Origin: Ignavibacteria bacterium
GTDB lineage: Bacteria; Bacteroidota; Ignavibacteria; Tepidaquicellales; Tepidaquicellaceae
Direction: 5' to 3'
DNA: 64,000 nt
NCBI GenBank assembly: GCA_019187405.1
Contig: JABAQZ010000018.1
Span: 1 to 64,000, forward strand
The translations under genes were made by a program, and so were the position numbers. Every line of letters starts with the position of its first letter. The first letter of the stretch is position 1. This document shows, in pieces, positions 3,169 through 40,265 of this stretch. The notes under the pieces were generated by a model that saw only the letters and a program-made list of their open reading frames with translations, had not been told where the DNA came from and did not search any database.

Positions 3169-4224
3169 CTAATTCTTAATCTCAATTCTTCTAGGAGCAA
3201 TACCTGTCTGATGTGAGCTCAATAAACTTCCGCTGTTATTATAAATCTCCAGTTTCCCGCTTACCTGAAAATTTTTTGCATTCGTAACATAATGAAGTTT
3301 GTTTTGAGAATCAAACTTATATCCATAGAAATAATTTTCTGTGGTATTAGGATTAGGAATTAAAACCGAACTCGTTTCAGAAGAAGTATTAAATTGAACT
3401 ATGTTATTGTAATATGATATGAAATATATATAGTTGCTTTGCGGATCAACTGATATGTCTTTGTCAAACCCAATAGCATTACCGTTTCCAATTGTAAAAG
3501 TATCTATAACTGTATAGTGTGTTAAGTTTACCGTAAAAATTTTCCCGGAGCTAATCGGACCCGGACAGCCGATGTATAAATACCCTTCATTTGATATAGC
3601 CAGAGAAGACGGTGTCTGCATCACCTTAATTATAGCTATCACCTGATCAGTATTAACATCGATGACAGAAACGGTAGAATCAGTTGCACCTCCGAAAACT
3701 CTCGTGTTACACACAAATATTTTCCCGTTGTAATGAAGTATTTCCTGTGGATAAATTCCAACAGGGATAGTCGATAATAAATTGAATGTATTCTTATCTA
3801 AAACTGATACATTATTTGAAGGACCGTTAGTAATGTAAATCTTTGATTGAGTTACGGCAAGCGAAAACGGATTTATACCGGCAGTAGTCGATTTTCTAAC
3901 TGTACCATTTGTATCAAGCAGATATATTTTCCCGTCAGAACCAAAATTTCCCTGTTCTGTCATGTATAATTCCTTTTGTACCAGCTGCATTCCGCTTGGA
4001 AATAACCCAGGCGTTCCAGGATTGAATATATTTTCTGTTATGGAATTTGTCAGAGAATTATAAAATGATAATTTACTTGAACCCGCATTAAATGTTCCTT
4101 CGCACAATACAAAGGCGCCATTTAATGTATTATTATCCGGTGACGGATTTATTAACTCATCCCTTGAACAACTTTGAAGTACTAAAGCAATAAATAAATT
4201 TAGTGTAATTAAAATATTTTTCAT
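3169..4224 (-). CDS. BtuG-like surface beta-propeller lipoprotein (vitamin B12 capture)
   Basis: A 351-residue lipoprotein. A hydrophobic leader ends in the lipobox LQSC with Cys19, followed by a charged SRDE. The rest consists of YVTN/YncE-like propeller blades: repeated 'N.VSVLD..T...L.TIPVG..P', 'STVSVIDVNTDQVIAIIKV' and similar units about 40-45 residues apart. In Bacteroides, BtuG is a beta-propeller surface lipoprotein that binds cobalamin very tightly and caps BtuB. The same role is inferred here from the fold plus position: it is the last gene of a riboswitch-controlled operon that starts with btuB, 8 bp after the small Fe-S gene. Sequence alone cannot show B12 binding. A generic YncE-like propeller is the alternative. 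Confidence 0.75.
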   Translation of the reverse strand: MKNILITLNLFIALVLQSCSRDELINPSPDNNTLNGAFVLCEGTFNAGSSKLSFYNSLTNSITENIFNPGTPGLFPSGMQLVQKELYMTEQGNFGSDGKIYLLDTNGTVRKSTTAGINPFSLAVTQSKIYITNGPSNNVSVLDKNTFNLLSTIPVGIYPQEILHYNGKIFVCNTRVFGGATDSTVSVIDVNTDQVIAIIKVMQTPSSLAISNEGYLYIGCPGPISSGKIFTVNLTHYTVIDTFTIGNGNAIGFDKDISVDPQSNYIYFISYYNNIVQFNTSSETSSVLIPNPNTTENYFYGYKFDSQNKLHYVTNAKNFQVSGKLEIYNNSGSLLSSHQTGIAPRRIEIKN

Positions 4225-4232
4225 TATAAGTT

Positions 4233-4433
4233 TTAATTTAGAGTTTCATTGAATTCGGTTTTTCCTGTTTCTATCATTTTATTAATATAAGGCAGACAAA
4301 GTTTACAGTTTAATGAAACCGGTTTTATATTTCTCAATTCATCAATTGATTTTAAATTATTTTTAATCATGATACTTATCATTTCTTTAAAAGTTGTATC
4401 ATAACAAATACACTTGTTTATTTTAACTTTCAT
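4233..4433 (-). CDS. Small BFD-like [2Fe-2S] protein in the B12 operon
   Basis: A 66-residue protein with four cysteines in the pattern Cys8-x-Cys10 ... Cys43-x-x-Cys46. This CxC-(32)-CxxC spacing is that of BFD-like [2Fe-2S] domains (bacterioferritin-associated ferredoxin, NirB/NasB Fer2_BFD). No signal peptide is visible, so it should be cytoplasmic. It lies 10 bp after the cobalamin adenosyltransferase stop and 8 bp before the BtuG-like gene, so it is co-transcribed with both. The context suggests a redox job in corrinoid handling, for example supplying electrons to reduce Co(II) before adenosylation. That role is an inference; a regulatory or scaffold role is also possible. Confidence 0.7.
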   Translation of the reverse strand: MKVKINKCICYDTTFKEMISIMIKNNLKSIDELRNIKPVSLNCKLCLPYINKMIETGKTEFNETLN

Positions 4434-4443
4434 TATTGTTTAT

Positions 4444-5103
4444 TTAAAAATCAATTCCTGTTCTGATTGGAATGCCTTTATCAAAATAATGTTTTACTTT
4501 TCTCATCTCAGTTATCAAATCTGCTTTCTCTTCAAGCCCTTCCCAAAGTTTATGCCCCGTCATTACCAGCTCGAATTTTTTGTTCGCTTTCCACAAATCA
4601 ATCAATCTGTTAATTTCTTCTTTTTCGACAAGATGATATACTACTGCAGCAATTGCTTCATCGAGTATCAGCAGATCCTGTTCGGGATTGCTTATCAGTC
4701 TTTCGGAAATCTCAAGCGCTCTTTTTGCTTCGGCAAAATCTTCATCGGTATTTTTAAAACGGAATGTTCCGTCATCATTCATCCTTTCGCATCCTGTCGA
4801 GAAAAACTCAACATCATAACCCGACTCTTTGAGCTTTCTCAAAGTATTCAACTCCGCATAATGCTCATTCTTACCTTCATAACCCTTATCAAACTGAACC
4901 AGCCTTACCCTAAGTCCTGCACCGAGCGCTCTCATAATTAATCCCATCACGCATGTTGTTTTTCCTTTTCCATACCCGTAATAGATATGAAAACATTTCA
5001 AATCTTCTTCCGAGAGATTTTTGTAATTCTCGATTGTTGCTTTTATCTTTTTCTTATACTTGTTACCGCCTGCTTTTTTTGCATCTTCTATTTTTGCAGC
5101 CAT
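4444..5103 (-). CDS. cobO: Cob(I)alamin adenosyltransferase, CobA/CobO/BtuR type
   Basis: A 219-residue cytoplasmic enzyme that transfers the adenosyl group of ATP to cob(I)alamin to make coenzyme B12. The P-loop GYGKGKTT is at residues 43-50, followed by the family pattern CVMGLIMRALGAGLRVRLVQFDKG. 'LLILDEA' is Walker B, and 'VMTGH' near the C-terminus is also typical. The ~40-residue N-terminal extension before the P-loop fits CobO/BtuR members. Its ATG lies 2 bp after the btuB stop, so translation is probably coupled. Repression by B12 through the upstream riboswitch makes sense for a salvage enzyme. Confidence 0.93.
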   Translation of the reverse strand: MAAKIEDAKKAGGNKYKKKIKATIENYKNLSEEDLKCFHIYYGYGKGKTTCVMGLIMRALGAGLRVRLVQFDKGYEGKNEHYAELNTLRKLKESGYDVEFFSTGCERMNDDGTFRFKNTDEDFAEAKRALEISERLISNPEQDLLILDEAIAAVVYHLVEKEEINRLIDLWKANKKFELVMTGHKLWEGLEEKADLITEMRKVKHYFDKGIPIRTGIDF

Positions 5104-5105
5104 AG

Positions 5106-7034
5106 TTAAATTTCAAGATTTAAATTTAATTTATAGTTTCTTAAAGGCATCGGATATCCCGGCATTACCTGATAGTTTAGATTGAATATATTGTTTACTT
5201 CAAATTTTACAAGCACATTGATTTTATAAATACTGAAGCTCTGATATATATTTCCGTCAATAATATTTATGGAGGGCATCAGCTGAGTGTTTTCCGCATC
5301 AGTGTATCTTTCTCCCGTATAATTATAAAAAAGATTTAATCCTGAATTATGATATTCGGCATTGAAGCTTACTTTAAAAAGATGCTGCGGAATGTAAATT
5401 ATCATTTTATCATAAGAAGGATCCCCCGGAAAATCCTCGCTTCTTTTCAGCGAAGATGTAAATGAATATTTTATATCTGATTTAAAATTAAATTCTCCCA
5501 GCATAAATTTTTTAGACTGAAAATCTGCAGTAAAAACGTTTGATACTGACTTGCCGATGTTTTCAGGTTTCCATAATCCGGAGGAATTCGGCATCCAGAC
5601 AATTTTATCCTTTGCATCGATATATGTATAAGTCAATTCAATTATACCTGTTTTCTTTCCGGGTAATTCGTAGATAAATCCGGCGTCTGCATTTAAAGAT
5701 TTTTCAGGTTTAAGATCCCGGCTCCCGGCATTTTCCCAGTACAATTCATTAAATGTAGGTGATGAAAAATTATTTCCTGCACTGAATTTAAAGTGTAAAT
5801 TGGTTCCGATAAACGGTTTATAGTTTATTCCGGCTTTTCCTGTAATGATGTTTTCATTTATATCTGAGTAATGTTCAAATCTTACTGAAGGATAAAATGT
5901 CAGTTTGTTCAACATGCTTAAGTTGGATAATAAAAATATGCTTCCTTGAAATCTTCCCGAAGGCGGACTAACTTCATTGCTGTTAATTCCAGAATATCCA
6001 ATTTCAAAACCGGTGATTAGTTCTGCTTCTCCTGCTTTGATCTGAACCTGCGATAAATTCCCAAGATAGGAATTTCTGTAATAACTGTCTGTTAATATTT
6101 TATCATAATATTTCTGATAATCATTCCTAAAATTCAATTGTGATTTAAATTTTATTTTATCCGAAAAATTATCCGAATAACTAAATATATTATTCCAGTT
6201 GTAATCATTCTGAACTGCATTGGAAGGTTCATTACCAGTTTCAATACCGGGGATTTCTCTTCTTGAATTTGTGTACTCCGAATAAAAATTTAATTCAGCA
6301 TCCTTCCTTCCGCGGAATTCAATCTGAACATTGTAATGACTGATATTGTAAGCGGAATTCTTTCTGTTTTTTAATTCATCACTGATTCCATTGAAATAAA
6401 AATAATTAAAATCATTGTCCGAAGTTTCATTGGATACTGATGCTGTAAAATAAAATCTGCCAAAAGGTTTGCTCAATCCAAAATTTATTTTTTTTTGTGA
6501 ATAAGATCCCGCTTGTCCGTTTAAATTTACTCTTAGTTTATTTCCACTTGCTTTGTCAGTACGTATGTTTACAACTCCACCGATTGCATTCGATCCATAA
6601 ACCGCACTCGAGCCGTTATTCAGGATTTCTATGCTTTTAATGTTGTCTTTTGAAATCAGACTCAAATCAGTCAATGCATTTTGAGGAGAATTTAATGTCA
6701 TTCCGTTGAGCAGAACTAAAGTATGCTCAGCGCCGAGGCCATTCATTGAAATAGTATTCAGCGAACCGCTGCCACCGTAATCCTTAATGAAAATGCCTCC
6801 TGCAGTCTGCAAAATATCTGCTAACGAATTTCCGTTTTTATTATTTATGGCTTCTTTATCAATAAGTTGAATTTTTACCGGAGCGGTAAATATGCTGCCG
6901 GAAAATTTATTACTGTGAACTTCTATTTCAGGAGTCAGATATTCAGTGGTGTCAGAAACTTGAGGATATAATTCACGCGCATACACTGCCGAAAGTAAAA
7001 TGAGTAATACGGACTTGTAAATTTTTATTGTCAT
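5106..7034 (-). CDS. btuB: TonB-dependent outer-membrane cobalamin receptor, BtuB-like
   Basis: A 642-residue protein with an N-terminal signal peptide (cleavage near residue 25), a TonB plug domain (about 45-160, including 'LADILQTAGGIFIKDYG' and 'NGSSAVYGSNAIGGVVNI'), and a 22-stranded-type barrel ending in an aromatic/hydrophobic final strand (NYKLNLNLEI). The size matches the BtuB/CirA family. The substrate call comes from the cobalamin riboswitch directly upstream and the adenosyltransferase directly downstream. The ATG follows the U-tract of a terminator hairpin with no intervening bases and no Shine-Dalgarno sequence. First gene of a four-gene operon. No BtuF/BtuCD genes are in the window. 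Confidence 0.92.
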   Translation of the reverse strand: MTIKIYKSVLLILLSAVYARELYPQVSDTTEYLTPEIEVHSNKFSGSIFTAPVKIQLIDKEAINNKNGNSLADILQTAGGIFIKDYGGSGSLNTISMNGLGAEHTLVLLNGMTLNSPQNALTDLSLISKDNIKSIEILNNGSSAVYGSNAIGGVVNIRTDKASGNKLRVNLNGQAGSYSQKKINFGLSKPFGRFYFTASVSNETSDNDFNYFYFNGISDELKNRKNSAYNISHYNVQIEFRGRKDAELNFYSEYTNSRREIPGIETGNEPSNAVQNDYNWNNIFSYSDNFSDKIKFKSQLNFRNDYQKYYDKILTDSYYRNSYLGNLSQVQIKAGEAELITGFEIGYSGINSNEVSPPSGRFQGSIFLLSNLSMLNKLTFYPSVRFEHYSDINENIITGKAGINYKPFIGTNLHFKFSAGNNFSSPTFNELYWENAGSRDLKPEKSLNADAGFIYELPGKKTGIIELTYTYIDAKDKIVWMPNSSGLWKPENIGKSVSNVFTADFQSKKFMLGEFNFKSDIKYSFTSSLKRSEDFPGDPSYDKMIIYIPQHLFKVSFNAEYHNSGLNLFYNYTGERYTDAENTQLMPSINIIDGNIYQSFSIYKINVLVKFEVNNIFNLNYQVMPGYPMPLRNYKLNLNLEI

Positions 7035-7094
7035 AAAAAAAACCTGAGTATCTGTTACACATGAGTCAAGAGAGATAACAGAAAATCAGGTTTT
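7035..7094 (-). terminator. Riboswitch expression platform: terminator abutting the btuB start codon
   Basis: Read on the minus strand: outer stem AAAACCTGA/TCAGGTTTT (9 bp perfect), a 3x3 internal loop, inner stem TCTGTTA/TAACAGA (7 bp perfect), then a run of T whose last base immediately precedes the ATG at 7034. The first four bases of the 5' arm (7094-7091) overlap the proposed riboswitch P1 3' strand. The hairpin could block both transcription and ribosome access. Confidence 0.85.
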
Positions 7095-7302
7095 GCAGAT
7101 TTCTCATTCATCTTTTCCCACGAAGACTACTGAAAACGTTTTTATGGCAGGTCTCCTGACTTAAAGCATTTCCCGGATATCCTTCCCGTAAAATTAAATT
7201 TACAGTGGAATAATTATCCGTTTTTCTTTATACAGTTGCGGGGACAGCTCCGGATTCAAACCGGATTCCCTTTTAATACCTTTAACCGGTAACCGCAAAA
7301 AC
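7091..7302 (-). promoter_or_regulatory. Cobalamin (adenosylcobalamin) riboswitch
   Basis: On the minus strand the order of conserved blocks is that of the cobalamin riboswitch: GGGAATCCGGT..GAATCCGG, then AGCTGTCCCCGCAACTGT, then CCACTG with GGGAAGG, then the B12 box AGTCAGGAGACCTGCC (about 7163-7148). P1 can close as TTTTGC (7300-7295) with GCAAAA (7096-7091). Downstream sits a terminator, so the expected logic is OFF with ligand. It controls btuB, cobO, the small Fe-S gene and the BtuG-like gene. Confidence 0.95.
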
Positions 7303-39054: not shown

Positions 39055-39480
39055 AAACCGTTTAAACGGTTTCTTACCATCCCCCGCCTTTTCCATGCTA
39101 AGAAATAGAGACATGCATGAAACGAAAACTAAGGAAGTCTAATTTCATTTTTTTTGAGAGAGAATAAGTTCGGGGTTGAGAAGCCGCAATTACAACAGTG
39201 ACTTCATAATATGTGCATATTAGAAACCGTTTAAACGGTTTCTTACCATCCCCCGCCTTTTCCATGCTATGAAATTGAGACATGCATGAAACGAAAACTA
39301 AGGAAGTCTATTTTCATTTTTTTGAGAGAGAATAAGTTCGGGGTAGAGAAGCCTCAATTACAACTGTCACTTCATAATAGGCGCATCTTAGAAACCGTTT
39401 AAACGGTTTCTTACCATCCCCCGTCTTTTCCATACTAAGAAATAGAGAAGTGCATGAAACGAAAACTAAGGAAGTCTATC
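39055..39480. repeat. Tandem array of ~169-bp units led by an 18-bp perfect palindrome
   Basis: Each unit starts with the palindrome AAACCGTTTAAACGGTTT (39055-39072, 39224-39241, 39392-39409), then CTTACCATCCCCCG(C/T)CTTTTCC and ATGAAACGAAAACTAAGGAA. A CGGGGT.GAGAAG block later in the unit can pair with the CCCCCG. Two full copies are separated by 169 and 168 bp. The third stops after about 88 bp. Differences between copies are few. Confidence 0.93.
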
Positions 39481-39520
39481 TTTTTTAAAAAAAATACAGT
39501 GTTGGGTGAGAACACTGTAT
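39481..39520 (-). terminator. Strong hairpin between the two tandem arrays
   Basis: Perfect 10-bp stem ATACAGTGTT/AACACTGTAT (39494-39503 with 39511-39520) with a 7-nt loop. On the minus strand it is followed by a run of eight T, as in an intrinsic terminator. No minus-strand gene ends just before it, so its client is unclear. Confidence 0.6.
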
Positions 39521-39540
39521 AATATTTCAAAGTTAGTAAT

Positions 39541-40001
39541 AAAATCCGTGAAATCAATTAATCAGTGCAAATCCGTGATTAAGACAACTAAACTTGAAAA
39601 AATATCTGAACTATAATTATTACAAAACGAATCAGAAGATTCATAACTCAAGAGAAAAAGTGATTAAAAAATCCGTGAAATCAATTAATCAGTGCAAATC
39701 CGTGATTCAGACAACTAAACTTGAAAAAATATCTGAACTATAATTATTACAAAACGAATCAGAAGATTCATAACTCAAGAGAAAAAGTGATTAAAAAATC
39801 CGTGAAATCAATTAATCAGTGCAAATCCGTGATTAAGACAACTAAACTTGAAAAAATATCTGAACTATAATTATTACAAAACGAATCAGGAGATTCATAA
39901 CTCGAGAGAAAAAGTGATTAAAAAATCCGTGAAATCAATTAATCAGTGCAAATCCGTGATACAGACATCTAAACTTGAAAAAATATCTGAACTATAACTT
40001 T
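39541..40001. repeat. Tandem array of 127-bp units, about 3.6 copies
   Basis: Units start at 39541, 39668, 39795 and 39922, exactly 127 bp apart. Each begins with AAAATCCGTGAAATCAATTA, then a partly repeated CAAATCCGTGATT, and contains the small inverted repeat GAATC/GATTC. The fourth unit breaks off after CTGAACTATAA. Copies differ at only a few positions. Sequence is unrelated to the neighbouring 169-bp array. Confidence 0.95.
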
Positions 40002-40265
40002 TACGTTACACACTTTTCAAAATAAAATCTCTTTTTAAAAATATAAAACCCCAATCATTAAGAGTCTTCCGAAATCTATTTTTTTAATTAAGTCTTACCA
40101 TAATTCATTTTTTTAAAATCTGTAAAAAGACTTTTACTAAAATTGCTGTTTCTAAAAATTGATTATAGAAATATCTCCCTTTAATTTTTATGCAGTAATT
40201 TTTTGAAAATACTGTATTGACTAAAATCAAATTATACTTTTTATTAAATTGCATAAAAAATTTTT
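40002..40265. other. Intergenic leader before the 77-residue gene
   Basis: AT-rich, no gene. A 9-bp inverted repeat TTTTATGCA (40186-40194) / TGCATAAAA (40250-40258) brackets a smaller one (CAGTA/TACTG) just upstream of the start at 40266 and could form a cruciform or leader hairpin. Confidence 0.45.

Follow-up and report, generated by a model that had tools for sequence, protein, structure and literature searches.

The window analysed here, a 64,000-nucleotide (nt) stretch of contig JABAQZ010000018.1 from an Ignavibacteria bacterium (genome of 3.78 Mb, 98% complete), carries a gene cluster, btuB-cobO-bfd-btuG, which we propose, with a probability of roughly 85%, to be an operon for cobamide salvage in an apparent B12 auxotroph, with a BtuB-BtuG pedal-bin transporter as its core. 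The parts of the operon, the fold of its propeller protein, the lineage, the linkage and the genome context were established by sequence and structure comparison. The original prediction, made from the letters of the window, had described a B12 salvage unit under one cobalamin riboswitch, combining an outer-membrane receptor, an adenosyltransferase, a small Fe-S protein and a BtuG-like surface propeller. All of these elements were recovered on the minus strand at the places given in Table 1, and the riboswitch in front of them is the sole RF00174 match in the whole genome. With 2-10 nt between neighbouring genes, the four are expected to share a single transcript. The predicted Ignavibacteria origin is also in agreement with the data, the closest named relatives being mostly Ignavibacteria or Ignavibacteriota metagenome-assembled genomes. 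Ignavibacteriota is a phylum separate from Bacteroidota in the NCBI ranking; GTDB, on which the genome sets used here are based, places Ignavibacteria within Bacteroidota.

The 351-residue propeller had been called from its blade repeats and a lipobox, and both hold. The protein matches PF16819 (DUF5074) at 47 bits (cut-off 27.2), and its N-terminus shows the lipobox LQS↓C19 followed by SRDE, similar to a lipoprotein export signal (LES) and with RDE-like residues in many relatives. Since this pattern resembles the Bacteroidetes-type signal by which BtuG is described to be exported (PMC6143338), the propeller is predicted to be a surface lipoprotein. When PDB sequences were searched with phmmer, the full-length matches were Bacteroides BtuGs (E 1e-7 for the BtuG1 domain, residues 37-344), the only match ahead of them being a local one to an archaeal S-layer propeller, and a search with the family profile placed BtuG1 and BtuG2 on top (E ~1e-47). 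An AlphaFold2 (AF2) model built from 24 sequences, with a predicted local distance difference test score (pLDDT) of 90.3 and a predicted template modelling score (pTM) of 0.86, is a seven-bladed propeller of BtuG type. Its top 16 Foldseek matches are all chains of BtuG1, BtuG2 or BtuG3 (best E 1e-20), above everything else, with the first non-BtuG match at E 9e-16. The comparison with BtuG2, proposed as a check alongside the original prediction, gave a VIA Z of 36.5 (2.4 Å over 301 residues).

Genomic linkage points in the same direction. In the contigs of named genomes the single window protein found no BtuG, and an alignment of the family was used instead. Among the loci of the nearest BtuG homologues, btuB lay in the same stretch in 40 of 40 and a cobalamin riboswitch in 37 of 40, two of the remaining three loci ending before the place of the riboswitch. 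A further 40 loci taken across GTDB Bacteroidota held btuB in 33 cases, a riboswitch in 27 and at least one of them in 36, and in the named Ignavibacteria loci btuG adjoins btuB wherever the contig extends that far. Homologues of the propeller are thus found mostly beside btuB or B12 riboswitches, close to the window protein as well as phylum-wide, and not away from them. In the BtuG tree, several forks of which are weak, much of the window's class is split from most other classes; BtuG1 falls in the half with the window's class, and BtuG2 and BtuG3 in the other. The distances between BtuGs follow those between BtuBs (r 0.735 over 78 loci, 0 of 2000 permutations), a correlation that includes shared species history. 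The phylogenetic depth of the btuB-btuG association suggests an old pair rather than a recent gut acquisition.

The four-gene order itself, whose conservation in related genomes had been suggested as a check, is kept locally and is not general. It is complete in the window and in genomes G016, G021, G011 and G009, and interrupted by contig ends in loci L127 and L128; many other relatives have btuB-cobO-btuG or btuB-btuG alone, and in a sister family btuG stands ahead of btuB. Only a subclade thus keeps all four genes in this order, while btuB-btuG forms the conserved core. Three near-complete relatives of the same family (G015, G023 and G025, genus g16) gave no BtuG match.

The receptor gene encodes a Plug domain (E 1e-21) and a TonB-B12 transporter, its TIGR01779 match (E 5e-40) being under that model's cut-off and its scores under the NCBIfam equivalog cut-offs. 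Among solved proteins, Bacteroides BtuB1 (8blw_A, E 4e-33) is the nearest by sequence, E. coli BtuB giving a weaker match (E 3e-16). The AF2 model (pLDDT 84) shows a Plug and a 22-strand barrel, and BtuBs are its first structural matches (E. coli BtuB, Z 44 over 537 residues; BtuB1, Z 42 over 587 residues, 1.9 Å). A segment resembling extracellular loop 8 (EL8), DKIVWMPNSSGLWKPENI, holds W488, which is invariant in a 19-sequence BtuB alignment; in the same column BtuB1 has Trp, BtuB2 Phe and BtuB3 Tyr538, and Tyr538 of this BtuB2/BtuB3-type segment touches B12 (PMC10404256). An aromatic residue at this position was considered as a marker of lidded BtuBs and rejected, E. coli BtuB having Tyr there. 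The EL8-like segment of the latter is shorter and without the W-x-P...W-x-P pattern, and the longer loop pattern, judged from the alignment, may separate lidded from lidless BtuBs.

The riboswitch match covers the full aptamer (model positions 1-189 of 189), well above the gathering score of 31.5, and no other Rfam family reached its gathering score within the window. The stretch from the aptamer to the btuB ATG contains a hairpin whose T-run reaches the start codon. A simple terminator scan did not pick up this hairpin. Among 18 loci of the same family, most have a long hairpin with a T-run about 34 nt past the aptamer, a few being without a clear one, and the stem sequences vary between loci (e.g., ACTCCCGG/CCGGGAGT). 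The retention of hairpin and T-run with differing stems fits a transcription terminator, and we infer that the leader hairpin acts as one under the control of the riboswitch.

The remainder of the genome is consistent with a need for imported B12. It encodes MetH, a small stand-alone B12-binding protein and a FecCD permease. CobS was not found in the genome search, nor were corrin-ring methylases: only two tetrapyrrole (TP) methylases are present, both RsmI-like on inspection of sequence and context. Together with the single riboswitch, this gene content makes the Ignavibacteria host look like a cobamide auxotroph. CHB1, a heterotroph from an anammox reactor, is missing key genes of B12 synthesis, and its btuB (UTCHB1_731) is expressed (PMC5460018); a UTCHB1 contig is among the loci analysed here (L091) and carries btuB-cobO-btuG.

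Of the two genes between btuB and btuG, cobO encodes a protein whose PF02572 domain is over its cut-off and which falls under the NCBIfam cobA equivalog cut-off. The 66-residue protein passes the Fer2_BFD model PF04324 (28.5 bits, cut-off 26); as a true Bfd it scores 16 bits against a cut-off of 75 (NF007803), so the match concerns the Fer2_BFD domain only. All four of its Cys are unchanged across an alignment of 16 sequences. As a member of a B12 cassette, the Fe-S gene does recur in B12 loci: about 16 of 38 loci in a phylum-wide sample of this BFD-like subfamily, from several families, stand beside btuB or btuG, and in the sister family a riboswitch-led cluster has the gene placed between metH and cobO, where it may trail metH by about 6 nt. 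It is not confined to them: many relatives are found in a cluster of dcd-like and rsmE-like genes (names assigned by inspection) of Bacteroidota genomes, which led us to reject the idea that it serves B12 genes exclusively; its role in B12 metabolism is consequently a guess. Loci of this second kind, with the gene between the dcd-like and rsmE-like genes and no B12 genes, are L170, L175, L183-L185, L193-L199 and L203. The Fe-S gene, alone among the genes of the operon, could be of a general ferredoxin-like kind and have arrived there without a B12 role; we place this possibility slightly below even odds. It agrees with the second gene context and with the frequent absence of the Fe-S gene from relatives that have btuB-cobO-btuG, and to our knowledge the characterised Bfd proteins serve in iron release and not in corrinoid reduction. 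Against it stand the subfamily loci adjoining btuB or btuG and the sister-family gene trailing metH with cobO close by, Co(I) being required by both CobO and MetH. As a hypothesis, which is speculative, we suggest that the BFD-like protein reduces cob(II)alamin, which would fit both neighbours. The most extended cluster of the sister family (L120:472-10974, similar in L119 and L122) reads btuG, btuB, a gene for a DUF6580 membrane protein, metH, the BFD-like gene, an AAA kinase-like gene, a deoxycytidine monophosphate (dCMP) deaminase-like gene, cobO and a lipoprotein gene; the terminal lipoprotein is a second, divergent one without a Pfam match.

Several observations weigh against a lidded transporter under riboswitch control. 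The propeller shares only 16-21% sequence identity with the solved BtuGs, and the archaeal S-layer propeller reaches a VIA Z of 33.2 with its model, which means that the fold alone is no proof of function. Of the five pocket residues named for BtuG2, Trp194, Tyr239, Trp272, Tyr316 and Tyr335 (PMC10404256), only Tyr316 is unchanged, as Y300; Tyr335 corresponds to Phe319, the Trp272 column to Phe, and Trp194 and Tyr239 are not retained. The shared species history in the correlation of BtuG and BtuB distances, and the stability of the leader hairpin relative to shuffled sequences (z -1.65, modest alone), belong on the same side. Concerning the pocket, Y300 is nearly invariant in the family of the window protein, BtuG1 is also without Trp194 (a long loop taking its place, as in the window protein), BtuG1 and BtuG3 vary at some pocket positions, and BtuG1 binds B12, having been solved with cyanocobalamin (8ptd). 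The window propeller is likely to bind B12 as well.

A B12-binding propeller need not be a lid. It could be a surface B12 binder, a loose store handing B12 over in the manner of BtuK or BtuH, since further surface lipoproteins that bind B12 are encoded in Bacteroides B12 loci, among them BtuK1 (PMC12751083), itself a structural match of the window propeller (Z 28.8); the second, more divergent lipoprotein after cobO in the sister family and the two genomes with two btuG genes per btuB could be read in the same way. We consider this improbable, because the BtuG match exceeds that of BtuK1 (Z 36.5 versus 28.8, E 1e-20 versus 3e-14), btuG is in the btuB operon at all near loci, BtuG distances follow BtuB distances and the EL8-like Trp is invariant. 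Less probable still is that the propeller binds something other than a cobamide, such as a different tetrapyrrole or a partner protein, and owes its place in the operon to another reason: low identity, changed pocket residues and the versatility of YVTN propellers as scaffolds would allow it. Against it speak the association with btuB and cobalamin riboswitches in many families and BtuG as the best structural match.

For the BtuB-BtuG salvage operon that we favor, the following course can be proposed. At low intracellular adenosylcobalamin, the riboswitch would allow transcription to run through the terminator hairpin and on into the genes btuB-cobO-bfd-btuG. Once exported to the surface as a lipoprotein, BtuG would hold B12 in the cavity of its propeller and cap BtuB, the EL8-like loop of which would push B12 off BtuG into the TonB-driven barrel. 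CobO would adenosylate the imported corrinoid, the BFD-like protein possibly donating the electrons that reduce Co(II) to Co(I), and the product would close the riboswitch.

Table 1. Elements of the B12 operon, with positions in the window
Feature	Position	Strand	Evidence
Cobalamin riboswitch aptamer RF00174	7312-7129	minus	cmscan 120.6 bits, E 1.1e-29
Hairpin and T-run (AAAACCUGA...UCAGGUUUU UUUU), likely intrinsic terminator of the riboswitch	7035-7094	minus	fold
btuB, TonB-dependent cobalamin transporter, 642 aa	7034-5106	minus	Plug, TIGR01779, PDB match, AF2
cobO/btuR-type cob(I)alamin adenosyltransferase, 219 aa	5103-4444	minus	PF02572, 153.5 bits
BFD-like [2Fe-2S] protein, 66 aa, CxC-x32-CxxC	4433-4233	minus	PF04324 Fer2_BFD
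btuG-like seven-bladed propeller lipoprotein, 351 aa	4224-3169	minus	PF16819, PDB, AF2 with Foldseek/VIA

Among relatives of the window protein, two export signals were encountered. In 106 distinct BtuGs, a lipobox without a tail of the type IX secretion system (T9SS) was present in 81 and a T9SS-like C-terminal tail without a lipobox in 18 (TIGR04183 confirmed in four), and no sequence had both; the remaining 7 fit neither pattern, several of them having looser lipoboxes by eye. The Fisher test for this exclusivity gave 5e-15, the rows not being independent. Since lipobox and T9SS tail never occur together, there are apparently two routes by which the lid gets to the surface. T9SS-tailed BtuGs stand beside btuB at L044:3944-5248, L046, L071:5938-7257, L077:6001-7320 and L093:5914-7230, and also at L073, L075, L078, L083, L089, L094, L102, L176, L177, L212, L216 and L234. 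Both kinds of lid occur in one operon with a single btuB in genomes G006 and G018 (loci L044:2073-7267 and L046:581-5716); this operon is riboswitch-led, with the T9SS-tailed btuG first and the lipoprotein btuG after cobO-bfd. In the literature searched no report of a T9SS-route BtuG was found; a paper containing both terms exists, the content of which was not weighed. The wider proposal of an old BtuG lid of Bacteroidota and Ignavibacteriota with lipoprotein or T9SS export, combined with a [2Fe-2S] protein acting as dedicated cob(II)alamin reductant in salvage, is tentative and in our judgment rather unlikely to hold in full.

Elsewhere in the window, dense tandem repeats with periods of 20, 40 and 119 nt and longer occupy positions 52-2971, just downstream of the operon, their short units including TGTCATCCCGAACACCCCAT and GTTCAGCATGACAGGGTGTT, and two more tandem arrays lie in 39055-40004 (periods 168 and 127). 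A search for the Fenna-Matthews-Olson (FMO) protein, bearing on whether green sulfur bacteria fall within the window's class, gave no match, and none in any control either, and is therefore uninformative.

A survey of 313 human gut genomes led to BtuG being called exclusive to Bacteroidetes (PMC6143338), and lipoprotein-capped transporters have been described as seemingly exclusive to Bacteroidetes and as probably advantageous in the gut (PMC10404256). No description of BtuG in Ignavibacteria was found in the literature searched. The original description of the cassette is confirmed and its interpretation largely right: the operon places a BtuBG pair in this lineage, together with a salvage add-on, cobO-bfd, that is conserved locally. 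That BtuBG occurs in environmental Ignavibacteria and reaches deep into the phylogeny speaks against an origin of lidded B12 uptake for life in the gut, and the capture of B12 by a BtuBG lid appears older and wider than gut adaptation. The BtuB-BtuG pair also gives a concrete mechanism for the proposed B12 dependence of heterotrophs in anammox reactors.

Compared with known systems, the small Fe-S protein has the size and the CxC...CxxC [2Fe-2S] domain of Fer2_BFD proteins but differs from Bfd in its score, far under the equivalog cut-off, and in its genomic partners, which here are B12 genes. The window BtuB shares with E. coli BtuB (b3966) the fold of a TonB-dependent cobalamin transporter but differs from it in the length of the EL8-like segment, which is shorter in E. 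coli, and the sequence match is weaker; E. coli has no BtuG homologue (PMC6143338). With BtuG1, BtuG2 and BtuG3 of Bacteroides thetaiotaomicron (PMC6143338, PMC10404256), the window protein has in common the seven-bladed propeller, the signal peptide, the lipobox with acidic residues behind its Cys, the btuB operon and the riboswitch, whereas it belongs to another lineage, has no BtuH fusion and is changed at Trp194, Tyr239 and Trp272, and its operon adds cobO and a [2Fe-2S] gene. Another close system is the BtuB1-BtuG1 complex (PDB 8blw), BtuB1 being the best sequence match of the window BtuB and BtuG1 the Bacteroides BtuG closest to the window's clade in the tree, although BtuG1 bears a BtuH domain and the neighboring genes differ.

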